Shown: positions 1,363 through 30,185 of the stretch, in pieces
Position numbering within the stretch: the stretch's first letter is position 1
Layout of the letters: every line of letters starts with the position of its first letter
Source: a virus
Length of the DNA stretch: 31,956 nt
Strand: one strand, 5' to 3'
IMG/VR virus record: IMGVR_UViG_3300008107_000464
Span: 1-31,956 of that record
Made by a program: the position numbers and the translations under genes
Notes under the pieces: model-generated
Database searches by the model: none
Seen by the model: only the letters and a program-made list of their open reading frames with translations
What the model was told of the DNA's origin: nothing

Positions 1363-3096
1363 TCATTTGTATTGTTGGTTAACCATCTCTTGGTGTAATC
1401 TATCAGAACTTAGTTGCCTTAAAGCTCTTACATTATCCACCGTTTTCTGATTTTTGTAAATTTCTTTTGGTGCGTAGAATGCCACATCAGGTATCATAAC
1501 AAAATATTGAGCATAATTTGCAGGTTGTTTTGCAATAGACTCAATTGATATATTTCCTGCGAGTTCATTGTTTTGCACATTCTTTTTAACAGTATCACTT
1601 TGTTGTGATTCTGTATTCATTTGCACAATAAAAGGTTTTGAATCCATGGCATTTTCGACAGGATTTCTAAAACCAAATTTTAACCCTTCAATCATAGGCA
1701 TTTCAATAGACTGCATTGGCTGTCTAGTTGGCGGCAATATTGTATATGATACAATAGGTGTTGTAATTGCCGTTGTGATTTCTTGTTTAAATGTTGGTGG
1801 TTGATATTGTATACCTTGTTGGCCAACATTGCTCAAAATTGAACTCTCTGTTTGACTAGTAAAACTACTATTGAGTGATTGTTGCAATCTAGCCGTATTG
1901 AAGGTTGTATTTGATTGTAAGTTGCCTTGCAATGAAGTTGATGAACTTTGCACCTGAGAAGACTCACCGGCAGAAAATGCCTGTGCATCAGCTGATTGAA
2001 CTACAGATTTTTCCAAAGCACTTGTTTTATCTTGGTTAGAACTAATCATGTTTAGTACTGACGATAGAGATACTGTTGATTTTGAACCGCCTGAAGAATC
2101 AGACACTTCACCAACTTTAGTTTGTTGGCCACTTGGTGCTGGTTGAGTAGATGCAACTTGTGGTGCAGGACCTGGTGCTGGTGCTCCCATAGGTGCAGGA
2201 CCTGATGGAGGCGGAGGAGGTTGTGAACCTTCTGGTGGTGGAGGACTTCCAGGTGGCGGAGGCGGAGGCGCACTACCATAAGTACCAGTTGGTGTTATCG
2301 CAACATTATCAACAATTGTTATAGTTCCTGTTGGTGTTGTTGTTTCTGATGTTGTTGGAGATGTTGTAGTTTTTGGCAGTAATTTATTTAAAGCATCCAA
2401 ATATCCAGGACAAGTTGGACTATACATTGGATTAGTTGTGCATGGGTCTACAGAATACTTTAAACTGAAACTGACATTATAGATTTCTGGTCCATATGGG
2501 CCTGCCCATCCATTATTATCACTACCGATAAAACCATACTGTACTTGGCCAATAGAAGGTACTGCAAGCGGTGTTGTAAATGTTTTTGAATAATCAAATG
2601 AAGTCCAGTTAAATCTATAATTTAAAGAATACACATCTCCATACAATAAATTTGTAGCGCCTCTACCATTAGTGTTATCCCAAAAGCGAACAAGCGCCAT
2701 TAAGTTATCTGTGCGCCCATCATCCCAACCATTACCATTCTTTGCCATAAACCCAAAGTTATATCCGTTAACTTGAAGTCCAGTAGCAGAAGGTAGCAAT
2801 GTTGAAATGTGCTGTTGCTGATAGAGATATGTTGAGCCGTAAGAAAAGTTAATGTTGCCACCAGGTCGAACAATTGCATTTGGCCCACAATAACCAGGAT
2901 CACCCCAACCCCAACAAGTTAGATTGTCTTGATAAACGCCATTCACCCAAGGCGTAGGTCCACCTTGAGGTGTTGTCTGAACAACATTCCCTGTAGTGTA
3001 AACTTGACCTGGTTCTAGTGTTTGCGCTTTACTTAAAAGCGGCGTGAACGAGAACGCCAAGCAAAGAGCCGAAGCCAATGTTTTTAACAGTTTCAT
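1363..3096 (-). CDS. Secreted Pro-rich multidomain protein
   Basis: The chosen start (ATG 3096-3094) gives 577 aa and places a textbook signal peptide at the N-terminus (MKLLKTLASALCLAFSF...SKA). Longer in-frame starts would put the signal peptide internally and overlap the upstream gene further. Residues about 25-235 form a Gly/Trp/Asn/Tyr-rich beta-type domain with repeated aromatic strands and a few Cys, possibly lectin- or adhesin-like. Residues about 272-322 are a proline-rich linker with several PPP runs, which usually need EF-P for smooth translation. The rest is Ser/Gln/Thr-rich and ends in a mixed domain. It overlaps the 3' end of the upstream repeat-protein gene by 68 bases. Exported fibre, adhesin or envelope-interacting roles are possible; the function is unknown. 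Confidence 0.75.
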   Translation of the reverse strand: MKLLKTLASALCLAFSFTPLLSKAQTLEPGQVYTTGNVVQTTPQGGPTPWVNGVYQDNLTCWGWGDPGYCGPNAIVRPGGNINFSYGSTYLYQQQHISTLLPSATGLQVNGYNFGFMAKNGNGWDDGRTDNLMALVRFWDNTNGRGATNLLYGDVYSLNYRFNWTSFDYSKTFTTPLAVPSIGQVQYGFIGSDNNGWAGPYGPEIYNVSFSLKYSVDPCTTNPMYSPTCPGYLDALNKLLPKTTTSPTTSETTTPTGTITIVDNVAITPTGTYGSAPPPPPPGSPPPPEGSQPPPPPSGPAPMGAPAPGPAPQVASTQPAPSGQQTKVGEVSDSSGGSKSTVSLSSVLNMISSNQDKTSALEKSVVQSADAQAFSAGESSQVQSSSTSLQGNLQSNTTFNTARLQQSLNSSFTSQTESSILSNVGQQGIQYQPPTFKQEITTAITTPIVSYTILPPTRQPMQSIEMPMIEGLKFGFRNPVENAMDSKPFIVQMNTESQQSDTVKKNVQNNELAGNISIESIAKQPANYAQYFVMIPDVAFYAPKEIYKNQKTVDNVRALRQLSSDRLHQEMVNQQYK

Positions 3097-4207
3097 ATTT
3101 GTCTTCTTTTGGTCGTTGTGGAATCTTATCTTTATTATCTTCCCATGTAAGTTTAGCTTGTTCGTTAAACACTCTTTCATCTTGACACATGACCGCAACC
3201 GCAGCAACTTTCATACCCATATCATATAGAGTTTTGGATAACTTCAAGCGTTCACAATTCATATCACGAACCGTTCCGCCACTGGATACACCAAACACCT
3301 GTGTTTGTACTGAGCCAGAAGAACCTGTTGAACACAAATCATTATTACCACCACTCATCATAGCTGGTGCTACGGCAGTTGGAGGAGGTTGAATTACACG
3401 CTGAGTAATTTCTGTTTTGTTAATGTTAGTGTTTGTCATTTCACCAGAGTTGATGTTCTGGTTTACATTGGCATTTTGATTTACGTTTGTATTATTATTG
3501 GTAGAAGTTGATACATTGTTATTGTTATTTGTCATCGTACCCGAATTGATATTGTTATTCGTGTTTGTGGATGAGCTAACATTGTTGTTATTATTGGTAG
3601 CGGTACTCACATTGTTATTGTTGTATGTCATTGTACCAGTATTTTCATTTTTGTTAATATTCGTAGAAGTGCTTACGCTATTATTGTTATTATTGAAAGT
3701 TTGAGTACCGCTATTAACATTATAATTTGTGTTTGTATTTGTGTTGTTGCTAGTTGAAACAGATGTGTTTTGATTAACATTTGTCATTGTACCAGAATTG
3801 ACATTATTATTATTGTAAGTCAAAGTTCCAGAATTGACATTGTTATTATTAAACGTCTGAGTACCACTATTCACATTGTTATTTGTGTTAACATTTGTGC
3901 TTGTGCTTGTACTTGCATTATTGTTGTTGTTAGTATTAGTAGATGTGCTGTTTACAGTTGATGTGCTCGTAGCATTTGAATTGCTTGTAGCGGTACTATT
4001 ACTGTTTACTGTACTGACACTATTTGAAGTGCTATTGGTGTCTACCAATGTTTTACTGTCGTATGTGCCTTGATTGATGAGACTTGTGGTCCCCGTTGTT
4101 GTTCCGCCAGTTGTACTGGAAGTTCCACTTGTTGTTTGAGCAATCGTGCTGCCAAACGCCATAACAAAAAGAGCAATAATTAAGCCCTTCTTGTTTAAGA
4201 ATTTCAT
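3029..4207 (-). CDS. Secreted Asn/Thr/Ser repeat protein with conserved Cys-containing C-terminal domain
   Basis: This 392-aa protein has a signal peptide (about 1-23, MKFLNKKGLIIALFVMAFG) and a Thr/Ser/Gly-rich spacer. Residues about 60-265 consist of imperfect repeats built from blocks such as VNSGTMTNNNNN and VSTSTNNN. The C-terminal domain of about 120 residues has three Cys (in DLCSTG, DMNCERL and VMCQDE) and resembles conserved C-termini I recall from aquatic phage proteins. The Asn-rich beta-prone repeats recall curlin- or amyloid-type repeats, but this is only a resemblance. It is the first gene of the minus-strand operon, has an AAAGGA ribosome binding site, and lies downstream of a T4-late-like motif. 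Confidence 0.8.
   Translation of the reverse strand: MKFLNKKGLIIALFVMAFGSTIAQTTSGTSSTTGGTTTGTTSLINQGTYDSKTLVDTNSTSNSVSTVNSNSTATSNSNATSTSTVNSTSTNTNNNNNASTSTSTNVNTNNNVNSGTQTFNNNNVNSGTLTYNNNNVNSGTMTNVNQNTSVSTSNNTNTNTNYNVNSGTQTFNNNNNSVSTSTNINKNENTGTMTYNNNNVSTATNNNNNVSSSTNTNNNINSGTMTNNNNNVSTSTNNNTNVNQNANVNQNINSGEMTNTNINKTEITQRVIQPPPTAVAPAMMSGGNNDLCSTGSSGSVQTQVFGVSSGGTVRDMNCERLKLSKTLYDMGMKVAAVAVMCQDERVFNEQAKLTWEDNKDKIPQRPKEDKYETVKNIGFGSLLGVLVHAAFK
3420..4070 (-). repeat. Degenerate coding repeats (Asn/Thr/Ser blocks)
   Basis: The plus strand shows many imperfect repeats of short units such as ACATTGTTATTATT and TTTGTCATTGTACC. On the minus strand these encode the NNNNVNSGTxT and VSTSTN blocks of the secreted repeat protein. 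The unit length is irregular, so this is a low-complexity expansion and not a clean minisatellite. Such tracts change length easily by slippage or recombination. Confidence 0.8.
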
Positions 4208-9977: not shown

Positions 9978-10903
9978 GAGCGCTAGTAACTGGTGGCTCA
10001 GGTTATCTTGGTTCACATGTCTGCAAAAGATTAAAACAAGAAGGATGGGATGTTGTTGTATATGACATTCGGAATCCAAAACACACATACGCCGACATTT
10101 ATTGTCAAGGTGATATCCGTGATAGAAATACATTGGATGATTTACTAGGCAAAGTAAAATTTGATGTAGTATTTCATTTTGCAGGTCGCATTGAAGTTGG
10201 TGAGTCGGTTAAAATACCGACCGAATTTTATGATGTGAATACTGGTGGGACCTGCAACCTATTAAATGTCATGGTAAAACATGGCGTTGATAATATCATT
10301 TATTCATCGACTGCGGCTGTTTACCGAACAGTAGATTATCAATTGGATGAATATGATGAAGTTCAATACAAGACCAATGCCTATGCAGGTAGTAAGTTGA
10401 GTGCTGAATATGCCATTCAACAGTCTGGTTTAAAACATATCATTTTTAGATATTTCAACCTTGCGGGTGCTGATCCTGATGGTGAGATGGGTGAAGACCA
10501 TGAACCAGAGACACATTTGATTCCTAGAATTATTCAGAATCTAAATAAAGTTGAAGTTTATGGTAAAGACTATAATACAACTGATGGAACATGTGTGAGA
10601 GATTATGTCCATGTGTGTGATGTTGCAGAGGCGCATTTGAACGCAGCCAAGTATCTAGCAGAAGGCAATAAACCTATTATTCTAAATCTAGGAACAGGCA
10701 AAGGTTATTCGGTAGATAAAATTGTTGAGCTTATTGAAAAAGTTTCTGGTAAAAAAATTGACGTTACCTACCTACCAAGACGACCAGGTGATCCAGCAAA
10801 GTTAGTTGCTCATGTTGACCTTGCCAAAAAAGTATTGAACTACCGACCTAAACATGATATAATGAGTATTCTACAAACCGCTTATAACTGGCATACAAAA
10901 TGA
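9974..10903 (+). CDS. galE: GalE-like NAD-dependent UDP-sugar epimerase
   Basis: This 309-aa extended short-chain dehydrogenase binds NAD(P) through GGSGYLGS at 7-14. It carries the Ser/Thr-Tyr-Lys catalytic set (SSTAAVY at 111-117, Y137-x3-K141 in YAGSK), the FRYFNLAGADP motif and DYVHVCDVAEAH, all typical of UDP-glucose 4-epimerase. The fully conserved signature and the length support activity on a UDP-hexose, presumably UDP-Glc/UDP-Gal. It is coupled by overlap to the RmlC-like gene before it and the ClpP-like gene after it. Confidence 0.9.
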   Translation: MRALVTGGSGYLGSHVCKRLKQEGWDVVVYDIRNPKHTYADIYCQGDIRDRNTLDDLLGKVKFDVVFHFAGRIEVGESVKIPTEFYDVNTGGTCNLLNVMVKHGVDNIIYSSTAAVYRTVDYQLDEYDEVQYKTNAYAGSKLSAEYAIQQSGLKHIIFRYFNLAGADPDGEMGEDHEPETHLIPRIIQNLNKVEVYGKDYNTTDGTCVRDYVHVCDVAEAHLNAAKYLAEGNKPIILNLGTGKGYSVDKIVELIEKVSGKKIDVTYLPRRPGDPAKLVAHVDLAKKVLNYRPKHDIMSILQTAYNWHTK

Positions 10904-11463
10904 AAAAAGAAGATATGATGATACCAGCTGAAGAAAAAATCAGCATTGGTTTACTGAACGCTCACATACATTTCCTAACTGGTGAAATTAATGAGGAAAG
11001 TATTAGAAGTGCAATCGAATGGATTGTATATGAAAATCTAAGCACAAACGATACCACACCATTGTCATTGTATATCAATTCAACTGGTGGTGATTTGAAT
11101 GAAGCTTTTGGTTTGATTGATATCATGCGTAATTCAAACCGAGTGATTCGAACCTTTGGTATTGGTTCTATTTGTTCAGCTGCGTTTTTAATCTTTGCAG
11201 CTGGTACCAAAGGTCATAGATATGTTGCTCAAAATACTAGTATCATGTGTCACCAATATGCCACAGAGATGAATGGAAAATACCACGACATGAAAGCGTT
11301 TGTGCGTGAAAGTGAACTTACCAATACAAGAATGCTAACAGTATTGCAGGAATGTACTGGTTTGGAACCTCGTAGTGTGAAGACCAAACTTATACCGCCG
11401 AGCGATGTTTGGTTTACTGCTGAGGAAATAGTAGAGCTCGGTGTTGCGGATATTATTTTCTAA
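10900..11463 (+). CDS. ClpP-like serine protease
   Basis: This 187-aa ClpP-fold protein has an intact catalytic triad in the right context: S93 in GSICSAAF, H118 in MCHQY and D169 in PPSDVWFTAEEI. The Ser-His spacing of 25 matches E. coli ClpP. The preceding LYINSTGGDLNEAF strand-helix is also canonical. It should form an oligomeric peptidase working with a host Clp ATPase or on its own. Phage ClpP-like enzymes also serve as prohead proteases, but no portal or scaffold gene is nearby. It overlaps the galE stop by 4 bases. Confidence 0.88.
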   Translation: MKKEDMMIPAEEKISIGLLNAHIHFLTGEINEESIRSAIEWIVYENLSTNDTTPLSLYINSTGGDLNEAFGLIDIMRNSNRVIRTFGIGSICSAAFLIFAAGTKGHRYVAQNTSIMCHQYATEMNGKYHDMKAFVRESELTNTRMLTVLQECTGLEPRSVKTKLIPPSDVWFTAEEIVELGVADIIF

Positions 11464-23539: not shown

Positions 23540-23565
23540 AACCCCGCCTAGTGCGGGGTTTTTTT
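23540..23565 (+). terminator. Intrinsic terminator after gp32
   Basis: A perfect 8-bp stem (23540-23547 AACCCCGC, 23553-23560 GCGGGGTT) with a 5-base loop is followed by seven T in a row. It is oriented for the plus strand and separates gp32 from the convergent tape-measure gene, whose stop lies in the T-tract. Confidence 0.93.
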
Positions 23566-26086
23566 ATGACACTCGTTGGAATAGATTTAAGAACATATCA
23601 TCATATACAGAAGGCAGGTTGCCTTGTTGTTGCTGACCGGCCGCTGCTGCTTGTGTATTGTTATTTGTAATATTTGTAACGGAAGCCATAGCAGTATCAA
23701 ACGCTCTTGTTATATCACCGAATGCAGAAGTTGCTGATGTAATCATGTCACCTACACTTGGTGCAGCTGCAGCTAATGTTCCTAATGATGGCATTTTAAA
23801 ATCTGGTGATGAAGCTGAATCTGAAGTTATACCACTTTTGTTTTTAGCTAACATTGTACCACTGCCATGACCCATTGGACCACCACCTTTTAATGCAGCT
23901 ATAGTTGTATCAACATTTGTATTTAATTGTGGATTAGTTTTTGCAGCTGCACCTTTAAGTCCCAAAACATCTAAAGAATTTGCGTTACCCATACCAGCAT
24001 TTTGTGCATCAATTAATTGTTTAGCACCTTTTGCACCAACAGCGTGAGCCATAGATAGATATTCTTCGGTATCTGGTAGTCCGTAAGCTCTCAACTGTTT
24101 AGCATTTGCTTCTGTATATGCTGCCATCATTTTTTCTTGATTCTGACCATTGAATAAATCATTTGGTCCAAGACCTGCTAATTTAGCAGCTGCAATAACA
24201 TCCATAAACTGATATTTTCCAGCAGCTTGTTTATTTGATTTCTTTTCTCTTTCACCTGCTTGCCAAGCAGCAACTTCACCTATTGTATTTTCAGTAACTA
24301 ATTTTCCGTTTATTGTAGCACCACCCGCTTTTCCAAATATCGTGTCGTAATTTCCACCAGACTCTCTGCCGCCAATTCTAGAAGCATAGTCACCAGAAGG
24401 TGCTGCTGTTGGTTTTGTTGAAGGTGCTGCTGGTGCTGAAGTTGAAGCAGCTGGAGTTGGTTTGCCGGCAGCTGCAAGTCTTGTTGCTTCAGCAGAACTC
24501 TCATTTGGTGCAGAAGGTAATGCTTGTACTTTAGCACTCTCAAGTTGTTGTGGTACAATACCTAATCGTTTTAATTTTTCTTCGTAGAATACAGCTCTCT
24601 GTTTCAAAACTTTTTCATCACCACCTTGATTAATGTCATCCTGTATTGAAGCAAGAGCTGCAACTCCATCTATAACTTGTAGTTGACTATCTGGTGCAAG
24701 TGCATCTATAACTTGATACGCAGTATATGCTGTTAACCATGCAGCGCCTATTGGACCACCAAGAAGGGCGGCTGCTTCACCAGCAAAAAATCTTTTAAGC
24801 ACTTCACCCGCACCTTTTTTAGCAACGTCTTTAGCACCTTGTTCAGCCGCCATTCTAGTAGCACGTTCTCGTATTTTATCTTCGGCTGTTTTATTGAAAC
24901 CTGCTGGTACTTTTTCACCAATAGTTCCAGGTTTTATTATTGGTCCTTTTCCTGGTGCTCCTGGTGGAGCTCCTGGTGCTGGTGCTCCTGGTGGTGCTCC
25001 TGGTGCTCCAGGTAATGGCAGTCCTAGTCGGCTTGCTGCAGCCGTTGCAGCTACACCTGCTAAGAGTGTGAGAGCCTTACCTAAACCAATAATTGCTAAG
25101 TATAATGCACCACCAACACCTAAAACAGTTAATAGTCCACCAGGAACATTTAATTCGTCTTTTAGATAACTATCTAAACTAACAAATGCTTTTTTGATTG
25201 CTTCATAGATTGCAGAAAAAACTTGAACAACACCTTCTGCAAATCTTGGGTCAGAAGCCAAATCACCCAGTAAATTAATACCTTTAACGAATAAATCTTT
25301 AATAGCAACAAATGTTTTAATAAAACCCTCTTTTACATCAGGGTCACTAAAAAGGTCCCCTAAAATTTCAGAGCCTTTTTGAATAATATTTTGTATACCT
25401 AAAATCACTTGTTTAATAAAAGATTTTATGCCATCAGCTACGTCTTGATTTTCTAGTAGTTTGCCAACACCTATTGCTAATAATCCAAGCAATCCACCTT
25501 TTAACAAATAACTAGCAATTGTTCCTAAAAACCCTAATATTCCACCACCCTCTTTTTCTTCTTTTGGTTTAGCACCAACTTGTGTTGGAGTTTTAGTTGC
25601 TATTCCACCAGCTTTATTAAACCTAGATTCGTAAGCTGTTTCTCTGTCACCAGCTCTTTTAAAGAACATGTCTGCATTTTTTGTTGCAGTACCACCTTGC
25701 AACTTGACCAACTTCATAATATTCAATTTGGTCAAATTCATGTCCATTGCCATTGCAGGCAAGACAGAGGAGTTTTTTGCAGCTAACTTAGAGTGAATTT
25801 TCAGTTCTCTGGTTTCACCAGTAAGAATGTCCATCTTTGTTTCTAGTGCGCCACTAGAGAATGAACCACTGCCTAAACTAGAAACCTTTCCACCAGATTT
25901 AGCAGGTGTTGCACTATATGATTTAAACAATGATGGCAAAGCAGCCGCCATGAATCCTTTTTGATTAAAGAATTGCCTTGGATCCACTTTCTCAAGAGTT
26001 CGTTTACCTAAAGTGGATGCTATTCCGCCACCTTTAGATTTTTCGGCTTTGTAAATCTCTGCTAATCTGGACTGTGTGTCTGCCAT
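23564..26086 (-). CDS. Tail tape-measure / hub protein with muramidase-like domain
   Basis: The 840-aa protein has a basic helical N-terminus, hydrophobic helices near residues 182-205 and 315-345 as in tape-measure proteins, a Gly-Ala-Pro linker (about 355-380), and a helical segment. At about 565-720 lies a peptidoglycan-hydrolase-like domain with a likely catalytic Glu in IGGRESGGNY (near 573), followed by AAGKYQF and later MAHAVGAKGAKQL. It ends in a Ser/Ala/Gln-rich part. The place directly after the gp26/gp51 frame-shifted pair is where a tape measure is expected. T4 gp29 is the likely positional counterpart; the lytic domain would help cell-wall passage. Confidence 0.75.
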   Translation of the reverse strand: MADTQSRLAEIYKAEKSKGGGIASTLGKRTLEKVDPRQFFNQKGFMAAALPSLFKSYSATPAKSGGKVSSLGSGSFSSGALETKMDILTGETRELKIHSKLAAKNSSVLPAMAMDMNLTKLNIMKLVKLQGGTATKNADMFFKRAGDRETAYESRFNKAGGIATKTPTQVGAKPKEEKEGGGILGFLGTIASYLLKGGLLGLLAIGVGKLLENQDVADGIKSFIKQVILGIQNIIQKGSEILGDLFSDPDVKEGFIKTFVAIKDLFVKGINLLGDLASDPRFAEGVVQVFSAIYEAIKKAFVSLDSYLKDELNVPGGLLTVLGVGGALYLAIIGLGKALTLLAGVAATAAASRLGLPLPGAPGAPPGAPAPGAPPGAPGKGPIIKPGTIGEKVPAGFNKTAEDKIRERATRMAAEQGAKDVAKKGAGEVLKRFFAGEAAALLGGPIGAAWLTAYTAYQVIDALAPDSQLQVIDGVAALASIQDDINQGGDEKVLKQRAVFYEEKLKRLGIVPQQLESAKVQALPSAPNESSAEATRLAAAGKPTPAASTSAPAAPSTKPTAAPSGDYASRIGGRESGGNYDTIFGKAGGATINGKLVTENTIGEVAAWQAGEREKKSNKQAAGKYQFMDVIAAAKLAGLGPNDLFNGQNQEKMMAAYTEANAKQLRAYGLPDTEEYLSMAHAVGAKGAKQLIDAQNAGMGNANSLDVLGLKGAAAKTNPQLNTNVDTTIAALKGGGPMGHGSGTMLAKNKSGITSDSASSPDFKMPSLGTLAAAAPSVGDMITSATSAFGDITRAFDTAMASVTNITNNNTQAAAAGQQQQGNLPSVYDDMFLNLFQRVS

Positions 26087-26281
26087 TTATTTTCTCGCTT
26101 GCTGTTGAGCTTTTAATCGTTCTTTTTCTTCTTCTAAAAATTTCACCAACATATCAATGTAAACTTGTCTTTCCCAAGGTATCATATTATCCAATTCAGT
26201 CAAACTATACTTGTGATGTTGCATTAAAGCAAAGTTAGTTTGAAAGTAATTACCTAAGGTATCATAACCAAATATTATACG
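26087..26281 (-). CDS. 51: gp51-like segment, read by -1 frameshift from gp26
   Basis: From CGT at 26281 the -1 frame relative to gp26 is open for 64 codons to TAA at 26089-26087, directly before the tape-measure ATG. It encodes a conserved-looking helical segment containing NYFQTNFALMQHHKYSL and LDNMIPWERQVYIDML, and ends in a Lys/Gln-rich tail. A TGA upstream closes this frame, and no ATG, GTG or TTG occurs before the internal ATG at 26224, which lacks a ribosome binding site and would cut the conserved part. Expression as a gp26-gp51 fusion is therefore most likely. Confidence 0.72.
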   Translation of the reverse strand, partial: RIIFGYDTLGNYFQTNFALMQHHKYSLTELDNMIPWERQVYIDMLVKFLEEEKERLKAQQQARK

Positions 26282-27015
26282 AAAAAATTTTGAATGCCTT
26301 CTACGACAATCTTTTCTTCATATCCACACTTACCACATTTAAAGTCTAAAGGTTTTGAAATCTTCGGCATGCTGGTAAAAAACTTTTGAATTTTTTCAAG
26401 GTCATCTTGTTGTAAGTTGTCCACAAACTCCATCAATTCTTCTTTTGTGGAATCTTTGGCATAATACATCTGATCCGTATCATAAATGAAATCAATACAG
26501 CTGACAATAACATCCATAATGGTATCGATAGATTCAGTTTGTAAATTATCAAAGTTTTTTACCATTCCTAAAGTTGGATACTTCATTACAATACCCAACT
26601 TGTCACTAATTTCAATCTTATTGTTGTGTTCTGGATCAATAGTTGGTTTGATATCTAAGATGTTTAAATCGAATTTGACTAGGCCACCACAAACTTTATC
26701 TTCACCCTTATCATCTTTAACGGTGTTGTTACAGTTGTATTTTAAATTTACAACCTCACCAACAGACCTAGCACGAAGCTGCATGAATAGATGTTCAAGG
26801 TCGAATGTTGGCAAATCATCAACATTAATATCCGACAGAATACAATTATTCAATACTTGTTTAACCACATCAACTGTTTCTTTTTCATCAGTTGACTGTG
26901 AAGCCATTAGAAAGAGCTTCTGTTCTTTTACAAGAAACGGTCTGTATTTTACTTTTTTGCCTGATGAAATTAAAGTTGTTTCATAGGTTGGCACATCAAT
27001 TTTTGGTAACGCCAT
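26275..27015 (-). CDS. 26: Baseplate hub / tail chaperone gp26-like protein
   Basis: The 246-aa product carries the gp26 pattern: FLVKEQKLFLMASQSTDE, then NNCILSDINVDDLPTFDLEH and LFMQLRARSVGEVVNL. Two Cys pairs (C95/C109 and C227-x2-C230 in FKCGKCGYEE) could bind zinc, which is not seen in the shorter T4 gp26 (208 aa). It acts in assembly of the baseplate hub in T4. The last codons contain the slippery site for a -1 shift. AGGA precedes the ATG. Confidence 0.82.
   Translation of the reverse strand: MALPKIDVPTYETTLISSGKKVKYRPFLVKEQKLFLMASQSTDEKETVDVVKQVLNNCILSDINVDDLPTFDLEHLFMQLRARSVGEVVNLKYNCNNTVKDDKGEDKVCGGLVKFDLNILDIKPTIDPEHNNKIEISDKLGIVMKYPTLGMVKNFDNLQTESIDTIMDVIVSCIDFIYDTDQMYYAKDSTKEELMEFVDNLQQDDLEKIQKFFTSMPKISKPLDFKCGKCGYEEKIVVEGIQNFFV
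26281..26287 (-). other. Slippery heptamer T TTT TTC for -1 ribosomal frameshift
   Basis: In the gp26 frame the sequence reads AAT TTT TTC GTA TAA. Both tRNAs (Phe on TTT and TTC) can re-pair after slipping one base back, so the ribosome continues with CGT ATA ATA into the gp51-like frame. The site is two codons before the gp26 stop. I see no strong stem-loop in the next 40 bases. Confidence 0.7.
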
Positions 27016-27035: not shown

Positions 27036-27818
27036 TTAAAAAATTGTCCCTGCAAGCGGAGCAACTATAGAATTGCTAATAGATTGTCCCGCCTTGTCAA
27101 AGAATTTGGCAGCTTTAACTCCAAACAAAGCAGCAGCTGCCGCAGCAATGTCATAACTTCCAGAATATACCACACGGTATTTTTGGAAAGTAAATTGTAC
27201 AGACACTCGGTGAAAACCTTCTTCACTCCAAGATAAAGGTTGAGATGCAATTGCAATTGGAAAGGCATCTCTTAATTCTATGACAAATATCTTTTTGATA
27301 AAGTCATCATACTGGACAATTTGAATATTTGTCATGTACCTTGTTTCTTCATCTTTTGAATAACGCAAGTTATTTGTATCTGTTGGCATAATTGCTTCCA
27401 TCCAACGTTCAAACAATTTACGCTCATAGAATTCGTTTGTACACACAAATGTTAATGTTGTTTCTTGGTATTGTGTTTGGTATGGTACTTTAAAACTAGG
27501 ACCATATATTTTAACATCTTGTGTTAAGATTGATTTTCCAGGCAATTCGGCCGATTCACATTGTAACGCCAAATATCTGGAGATGGCTGGATTGGAAGTT
27601 CTAGTTTCTTCTCTCCCACCACCAGTAATACTATTGATATCAGCTGTAATATCTGCAATGATATTATTTGGTATATTAAAAAACTTTTCTAAAGCTGATG
27701 ATTCAATAAAACTATTGATGTAAGTTGGAATAGGAAGAATGACTTCATATCGACTTGGCCTGGCCAGTCCATCTTTTGCTTTAATGTTTGATAGAAATAA
27801 TTGTGGTGAGAATGACAT
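27036..27818 (-). CDS. Tail-tube-like protein (gp54/gp48-type tube initiator or tube)
   Basis: The 260-aa protein begins MSFSPQLFLSNIKAKDGLAR and contains the tube-fold strands YLALQCESAELPGKSILTQD, IYGPSFKVPYQTQYQETTLT and FVIELRDAFPIAIASQPLSW, seen in contractile-tail tube and tube-initiator proteins. The Ala-rich C-terminus is helical. T4 gp54 is about 320 aa and gp19 163 aa, so the exact equivalence is uncertain. Upstream is the gp2-like gene, overlapping at one base; downstream is gp26. A tube protein upstream of the chaperone pair and tape measure matches the usual tail gene order. Confidence 0.72.
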   Translation of the reverse strand: MSFSPQLFLSNIKAKDGLARPSRYEVILPIPTYINSFIESSALEKFFNIPNNIIADITADINSITGGGREETRTSNPAISRYLALQCESAELPGKSILTQDVKIYGPSFKVPYQTQYQETTLTFVCTNEFYERKLFERWMEAIMPTDTNNLRYSKDEETRYMTNIQIVQYDDFIKKIFVIELRDAFPIAIASQPLSWSEEGFHRVSVQFTFQKYRVVYSGSYDIAAAAAALFGVKAAKFFDKAGQSISNSIVAPLAGTIF

Positions 27819-28871: not shown

Positions 28872-30185
28872 ATGGCATTTTTCTCACTTACAGATATAAA
28901 ATATATTCCTGGTCAGAATAGGAATTTTGAAGTCAATTCCGACCAATTTAATATAGACAATAAACGCTATCCTATTGATATTGGAAGAAAGAACACAAGT
29001 GGGTGGTTATAATTATGACGATACGGCTACAGCAAAAATATTGGAAAATACTAGCGGATCACAGAATGCGATTACTGGAGCTCAAGAAATAGTTACAAAT
29101 GTGTTGGATTTTGTGGCAGAAAGAAATGCTATACAAGATGAAAGTCTAACTAGATACGAAGGTAGTTATGATGGCTCTGCCTCTGATGACGGAACAACGG
29201 CTGGTATTTTGGATGAAATCAATTCAAAGAATACACTTTTTAAAGCCGGTCAGTATGCTAAATCTATAAAAGAATCAGACCTTTTAAAAAGAGGAAACTT
29301 TTTTAGAACTGTAAAAAGAACGAAAGACACCATTGCCTTGTATATGCCAGATACATTGGCATTTGATTACAATCAATCATATAGTGATGTAAGTGTAGCT
29401 TCTGGATTAGGGATTGCTGGTGCTGGCTTACAAGCTGGTGCTTCTCTTATGAATGCAGGTAAAAAAGGTGGTGATGCTATACAAAAAAATATGGCTCCAT
29501 TTGTTGCTGAAGCTACGGCTGGTTTTGGTTCAAAGTTTGGTCTGGATAAAAATGTTTTATTCACAGCACTTTCTGCCGCAACAGGTGGTGCTTTAGCAGT
29601 TAACCCACAACTAGAGTTGATATATCAATCACCATCTTTTAGAAATTTCAAGTTTTAACTTCATCATTCGGAAGATACTTGGTTCCTCCATCTGAGTTTG
29701 ATATTAAATTTTATTATAATGGCCAAGAAAATCCAAATATACCTAAAGTTTCCACTTGTGTATTGACTGGAGTTTCAATTGATTATGCACCAAATGGTTT
29801 TGCTTCTTATGAAACACTATTGAATTCACCTGAACGTGGTGGAACTGGTATGCCTGTTGCTATACGTATGGACTTATCGTTTAAAGAAACAGAAATTATC
29901 ACTAAACAATTCTTATCAGGTGAGCAAGTTAAGTATAAGTCACCATTCAGAGGTGATGAAGCAATTAATGGTTTGGATTTTGGTAACGAAAGAAGTGGTG
30001 AACTTAGAACACAGGCCGAGATTGATGCATCTAATGATTTGGGTGATTGGAATGAAACAGGTATAACCTTTGAAACTACTGCTACATCCGATACAGAATT
30101 TGATTTAGCTAATGGCGATTGGGGTACAGAAGACACAACTGGAATTGATGAGTCTGGTAGTGGTGGTTCCATAGGAGGTGCATAA
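28872..30185 (+). pseudogene. 48: Baseplate tail-tube cap gp48, broken by two frame changes
   Basis: Three adjoining frames together resemble one gp48. Part 1 starts at ATG 28872 (MAFFSLTDIKYIPGQNRNFE) and reaches KRYPIDIG, then stops at 29010-29012. Part 2 continues in the +1 frame from about 28976 (EERTQVGGY, later RTKDTIALYMPDTLAFDYNQ, ending SPSFRNFKF with a stop at 29656-29658). Part 3 returns to the first frame (SSFGRYLVPPSEFDIKFYY to 30185). At both joints the segment I expect from homologues is missing: a GHYM-type strand after YPIDIG, and a DFxxxPRxExEA-type helix after FRNFKF. This suggests two internal deletions, real or from assembly. gp48 caps the tail tube on the baseplate and should be essential. 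Confidence 0.7.
30173..30180 (+). promoter_or_regulatory. Strong Shine-Dalgarno AGGAGGTG for gp53
   Basis: AGGAGGTG lies six bases before the ATG at 30187 and inside the last codons of gp48. It decides the start of gp53 over an in-frame GTG at 30178 that falls within it. It is the strongest ribosome binding site I noticed in the window. Confidence 0.8.

Follow-up and report, generated by a model that had tools for sequence, protein, structure and literature searches.

A homologue of T4 gp26 in an environmental phage sequence very probably yields both a short (G) and a long (GT) tail assembly chaperone through a canonical -1 programmed ribosomal frameshift, a reading that we base on comparative sequence evidence. 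The gene lies on the IMG/VR virus record IMGVR_UViG_3300008107_000464, of which a stretch of 31,956 bases (hereafter, the window) was analysed. Judged by its gene content, the source is an environmental T4-like myophage: the window encodes homologues of T4 gp53, gp48, gp4 (head closure) and gp2 (DNA end protector), as well as a gp32-type single-strand DNA-binding protein. A search for an isolate phage near it at the DNA level gave just one 39-base match.

The gp26 gene ends in a slippery heptamer followed by an open -1 frame

The features of the locus, all of which lie on the minus strand, are the following, in the order of transcription:

27036..27818, minus strand: upstream gene, tail-tube family protein (gp19/gp54-like), assigned by phrog_45 and synteny
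26275..27015, minus strand: gp26 homologue, predicted short tail-assembly chaperone form (G-like), 246 aa, 0-frame, assigned by PF12322, phrog_150 and an AlphaFold2 model
26297..26301, minus strand: GAAGG, possible weak Shine-Dalgarno-like stimulator (uncertain), 9 nt 5' of the heptamer, from anti-SD pairing
26281..26287, minus strand: slippery heptamer T_TTT_TTC in 0-frame phase, from sequence and conservation in relatives
26275..26277, minus strand: gp26 0-frame stop TAA, one codon past the heptamer, from sequence
26087..26287, minus strand: predicted -1 extension (T-like, gp51 C-terminal domain), FF + 64 codons + TAA, from phrog_634, dN/dS and profile
23564..26086, minus strand: next gene, 840 aa, presumed tape measure protein, from position and length

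The 3' end of gp26 reads ATT CAA AAT TTT TTC GTA TAA, with the heptamer in the X_XXY_YYZ phase, such that after a -1 slip both Phe codons would re-pair as TTT TTT. The -1 frame, which is closed upstream by a TGA, runs after FF for 64 codons (RIIFGYDTLGNYFQTNFALMQHHKYSLTELDNMIPWERQVYIDMLVKFLEEEKERLKAQQQARK) to a TAA at 26089..26087, and this stop abuts the ATG of the next gene at 26086; the predicted fusion product is 309 aa long. An earlier note on this DNA had proposed the frameshift from the letters alone, and its statements on the gp26 end, the heptamer phase, the upstream TGA and the 64-codon -1 frame all proved correct.

The identity that the same note had given to gp26 was borne out by a match to PF12322 (T4_baseplate) with an E-value of 1.7e-64 and 218 bits (cut-off 24.5), spanning positions 2-218 of the 219 in the profile, and by a match to phrog_150 (E 1.7e-72). 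The upstream gene matches phrog_45 (tail tube; E 1.3e-33), and its syntenic counterparts in R10Z, D480 and phiAS5 are annotated as tail tube or tube initiator. The 840-aa gene downstream is presumed to encode the tape measure from its position and length, its sole profile match being a lysozyme-like stretch at residues 576-656 (phrog_90, 1.7e-6). The G/GT layout claimed for the locus is supported upstream by the tail-tube-family gene, and downstream it is presumed from the position and length of the next gene.

The heptamer and the -1 frame are conserved in environmental relatives

Among the 61 window ORFs of at least 80 aa, five carry some slippery heptamer within the final 12 codons, and three of those five also have a -1 extension of at least 50 codons. 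The combination is not rare in the window, so the anatomy by itself is weak evidence. We therefore rest the exclusion of chance on conservation, namely on the presence of the site in every relative scored, the lack of synonymous change within it and the probability of its codon choice.

Four gp26 queries returned 240 environmental loci, of which the 234 that reach the gp26 stop were scored. All 234 contain an in-frame T_TTT_TTY near the gp26 3' end (220 with TTC and 14 with TTT), and the -1 frame remains open for 52-71 codons beyond the gp26 stop wherever the sequence covers its end. The +1 frame is nearly always much shorter, usually closing within about 20 codons. In two clades, comprising 817 and 985 sequence pairs, not one synonymous difference was seen at TTT TTC (obs/exp 0.0), compared to obs/exp ratios of mostly 0.7-1.5 at the neighbouring codons. 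The probability of finding T|TTT in every cluster from codon usage alone is 10^-10.6 for 19 clusters at 50% identity and 10^-28.6 for 81 clusters at 90% identity. Additionally, the -1 ORF has a median dN/dS of 0.19 and 0.10 in the two clades, and no pair has dN>dS; the protein encoded in the -1 frame is under purifying selection. The frameshift claim of the earlier note is therefore supported by the heptamer, by the absence of synonymous change and by selection on the -1 frame.

Alternative explanations for the two frames

The extension might instead be a separate small gene ('gp51') that is translated by termination-reinitiation after the gp26 stop, with the slippery run being incidental. GenBank cyanophage records do annotate a separate gp51, P-SSM2-like loci have an ATG 5 nt past the gp26 stop in 80/80 cases, and in KVP40-like phages an ATG overlaps the stop (TAATG). 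In the window, however, no ATG, GTG or TTG precedes the conserved block, and the first ATG is found 53 nt past the gp26 stop, inside that block and without an SD-like sequence; +53 nt is also the commonest position of the first ATG in the window's clade (67/78). A gp51 opening at its own ATG, which the earlier note had proposed to look for in relatives, thus has a candidate start at or just after the stop in a minority, the P-SSM2-like and KVP40-like phages, and both groups keep the heptamer despite that ATG. Annotated gp51 starts also vary, giving proteins of 43 aa in Syn1 and about 57 aa in P-SSM2, and these differing internal ATGs are as expected of gene callers forced to pick a start. Moreover, the -1 protein is conserved from the codon immediately after the heptamer, and reinitiation would leave synonymous change at TTT TTC permitted, yet none was found. 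We consider a separate gene very unlikely as the general explanation, and reinitiation may contribute in P-SSM2-like and KVP40-like phages.

We regard as less likely still that RNA polymerase slips on the T6 run and produces mRNAs with one extra U, from which the fusion would be made by normal decoding. The run is present, and RNA polymerases are known to bring about recoding by slipping on homopolymers (reviewed in PMC5009743). Such slippage would favour longer runs, but exactly six T followed by C are found in 220 of the 234 relatives and a longer run in just 14, and the site of P10VF is T6G. A run of six is, in addition, short for slippage by bacterial polymerases. Least credible of all is that the frame break arose by faulty sequencing or assembly, or that the two frames are neighbours without any relation. 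The apparent deletion that the same record has in gp48 would speak for an error, but this reading is refuted by the recurrence of the same arrangement in the 234 environmental loci and in many isolate genomes. A -1 ribosomal frameshift remains by far the preferred reading.

The slippery site is widespread among T4-like phages

A T6N site is present in 17 of the 20 annotated or isolate phages sampled, and in 16 of those 17 the T domain is in the -1 frame. Carriers include Kyanoviridae, S-SKS1, Methylophilales Melnitz-3, Sinorhizobium phiM7, Schizotequatrovirus R10Z, Vibrio D480 and Aeromonas phiAS5, as well as Caulobacter Cr30, Acidovorax ACP17, Rhizobium P10VF, Nitratidesulfovibrio SRB7757 and a single-cell marine virus; the groups represented among the carriers include Schizotequatrovirus, Chrysonvirus and Emdodecavirus. 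The earlier note had suggested an alignment of gp26/gp51 junctions, and this comparison speaks for frameshifting, both close and distant homologues having kept the heptamer. In S-SCSM1 (locus L089, junction near 2505) the heptamer is kept and the T domain is placed in +1 with respect to gp26; this placement is either a sequencing indel or a real exception.

The run is absent in 3 of the 20 phages, the Ackermannviridae LIMEstone1 and SJ2 and Vibrio D492. In Ackermannviridae the gp26 gene ends GAR ATT TTC ATY TAA in 18/18 loci (L268-L285), without T6 and with the T domain in -1, and a pattern of this type also occurs at loci L096, L101 and L266. Most Ackermannviridae loci lack an ATG before the conserved block; Limestonevirus-type loci have one that overlaps the gp26 stop (TAATG), and the other Ackermannviridae loci have none there.

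Homology of the extension with the T4 gp51 C-terminus

The -1 extension of the window matches phrog_634 with an E-value of 3.5e-28, and the same family matches residues 147-246 of T4 gp51. A profile built from the environmental extensions alone matches residues ~190-252 in 5/5 T4-type gp51 proteins and in 0/5 gp26 proteins. On this profile evidence, the extension and the C-terminus of T4 gp51 (residues ~200-245) are homologous, and the description of the extension as gp51-like by the earlier note holds with one qualification: the homology concerns only the C-terminal ~50 residues. T4 gp51 opens with a second copy of gp26, which takes up its first ~200 residues. PF12322 is matched by both T4 gp26 and T4 gp51, and by sequence the two are paralogues.

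The gp26-like N-terminal part and the extension, which form one uninterrupted gene in gp51, do not do so in the window, where the N-terminal part is gp26 itself and is joined to the extension only by the -1 shift. This arrangement tracks with copy number: a single PF12322 copy was found in 19/19 sampled genomes in which the extension follows downstream and in a different frame (-1 in 18/19), and two copies were found in 5/5 genomes with a full-length gp51 carrying the extension (T4, RB43, Aeromonas 31, KARL-1 and SFHK24). T4 gp26 ends GAG TTC TTT GAG TTA CTA TAA, retaining FF without a slippery run. In a maximum-likelihood tree of gp26 and gp51, the gp51 rows cluster together, and a supported branch (99/98) separates the frameshift-type rows from those of gp26/gp51; because the branches are long and the tree has no root, the direction of change in it is only deduced.

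One history, which we put forward tentatively, is that frameshifting within one gene is ancestral in the gp26 family and was replaced once, in T4-type Straboviridae, by duplication to gp26 and an extension-fused gp51. The Ackermannviridae would, under the same history, have exchanged the heptamer for the non-canonical GAR ATT TTC ATY TAA, reaching the -1 frame in another way.

Structural comparison of gp26 with tail assembly chaperones

An AlphaFold2 model of gp26 (pLDDT 84) was compared with 998 structure chains. For its N-terminal ~85 residues, the top three of the 998 were 3FGX, 2OB9 (HK97 gp13) and 3KLU, with VIA Z-scores of 7.7, 7.3 and 7.1 over 84-85 residues, values below 8 being not conclusive by the calibration of the tool. 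All three are described as phage tail assembly chaperones (PMC9603447). A Foldseek search of the gp26 model against the PDB gave no significant E-value (2OB9 and 3FGX had E above 1), and a sequence search of solved structures with the gp26 and T profiles returned nothing relevant. The model is thus suggestive of a chaperone-like fold for the N-terminal domain of gp26. The extension is modelled as helices.

Candidate stimulators of frameshifting

In the window, the RNA structure downstream of the heptamer is not strong (z -0.6), and it is not significant in the window's clade. The anti-SD pairing of GAAGG in the window is unremarkable, with 29% of gene windows at least as strong. In most of 27 relatives tested, the pairing falls within the top 15% of gene windows, and the conservation of the SD-like sequence is partly forced because the E-G residues are themselves conserved.

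In the P-SSM2 clade the SD-like element, GAGGG, is stronger, and GAG before GG is kept in 43/45. In the P-SSM2-like clade (L102-L181) a stable hairpin starts about 5 nt 3' of the heptamer, with z about -4 in several loci; no compensatory pairs and no covariation support were found for it. The hairpin and the GAG of this clade are possible stimulators that are absent in the window's clade. The text of an E. coli motif study gave no match for the efficiency of U_UUU_UUC.

Other features of the window

The gp48-like tube-cap gene on the plus strand (28975-30185) is broken, comprising an ORF at 28975-29658 followed by a -1 frame at 29679-30185. In a contig almost identical to this record (L002), there are roughly 78-92 additional bases at ~29650 and 44 additional bases at ~28985, and in L007 and L010 the gene reads through in one frame. 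The break resembles a deletion or a collapse of the assembly rather than recoding. A ClpP-like protease of the head maturation / ATP-dependent protease families (10900-11463, plus strand; phrog_94, 7e-24) is encoded next to genes for a nucleotide-sugar epimerase and a heptose-type nucleotidyltransferase. A 392-aa protein (3029-4207, minus strand) contains long N/T/S-rich repetitive tracts and has a weak match to phrog_20531 only.

Discussion

We propose that gp26 would serve as the N-terminal (short, G-like) tail assembly chaperone. Most ribosomes would stop at the TAA (26277) and release the 246-aa protein, and a minority would slip one base back at T_TTT_TTC while decoding TTT TTC, both tRNA-Phe re-pairing with TTT TTT. 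The slipped ribosomes would then read 64 more codons in the -1 frame, giving a 309-aa fusion (GT-like). If the analogy to lambda gpG/gpGT holds, the N-terminal part common to both products would form a coat on the tape measure protein, and the tail-tube subunit would be brought in by the extension (T). We infer that the slip takes place in vivo, as well as its efficiency and the partners to which the products bind. The lambda G/GT model is the best-supported mechanism, given a tail-tube-family gene on the upstream side and, on the downstream side, a long gene presumed to encode the tape measure. Weighing against this reading are the +1 position of the T domain in S-SCSM1, the lack of a T6 run in Ackermannviridae-type phages, the weakness of the candidate stimulators in the window and structural Z-scores below 8.

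The order of tube protein, chaperone, -1 shifted extension and presumed tape measure, with a short and a long product (both predicted here), is shared with lambda. Xu, Hendrix and Duda reportedly described the conserved tail-gene frameshift, with lambda gpG/gpGT, in 2004. The heptamer here is T_TTT_TTC versus G_GGA_AAG in lambda. Unlike in lambda, the window gp26 is larger (246 aa) and has C-terminal domains beyond the chaperone-like fold, and searches of Pfam, PHROG and PDB sequences matched the window proteins to no lambda-type chaperone. The lambda chaperones and the conserved frameshift are reviewed in PMC5009743. A conserved poly-T -1 frameshift before the tape measure is also present in Andersonviridae / Vandenendeviridae (phage Adele, PMC12846349), but with the motif GTTTTT and in a different phage group.

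T4 encodes the counterparts of these two forms in separate paralogues, gene 26 for the short form and gene 51 for the short part with the extension fused to it. The likeness lies in a short form homologous to gp26 and a gp51 that is this short form plus the extension; unlike in the window, the two forms are encoded by two divergently transcribed paralogous genes. Both T4 proteins are classed among the hub assembly chaperones; gp51 itself is needed for assembly yet is not in the particle (PMC3004832). Cyanophages (Kyanoviridae, P-SSM2, Syn1) have the same heptamer at the same position and a homologous -1 extension of about 60 codons, annotated as two genes, gp26 and 'gp51'. The observation that cyanophage gp51 lacks the first ~200 residues and reaches just ~20% of its T4 counterpart in length (Sullivan et al., 2010; PMC3037559) would be accounted for by an extension that is added to gp26 by frameshifting.

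The link from the T4 hub proteins to the general chaperone system, which the earlier note had presented as a prospect, is supported but is not new. According to the passages that cite it, the study of Vladimirov, Gautam and Davidson (2022; Virology 566:9-15) identified the tail assembly chaperone genes of T4-like phages: the PRFect paper cites it for the statement that some T4-like phages have short and fused long chaperone genes instead of frameshifting (PMC10885494), and the phage Adele paper cites it for poly-T frameshift signals in T4-like chaperone genes (PMC12846349). As far as these citing passages go, the principle dates from 2022, and the window case is possibly part of an already described set.

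What is added to the 2022 principle is breadth and quantitative evidence. On this reading, the 'gp51' that is annotated as a gene of its own in cyanophages and many T4-like phages would be a -1 extension of gp26, correcting a widespread misannotation, and the T4 hub chaperones 26 and 51 would take their place in the general G/GT tail chaperone scheme. The family would thereby offer a natural case in which programmed frameshifting and gene duplication are alternative solutions to the need for a short and a long protein.
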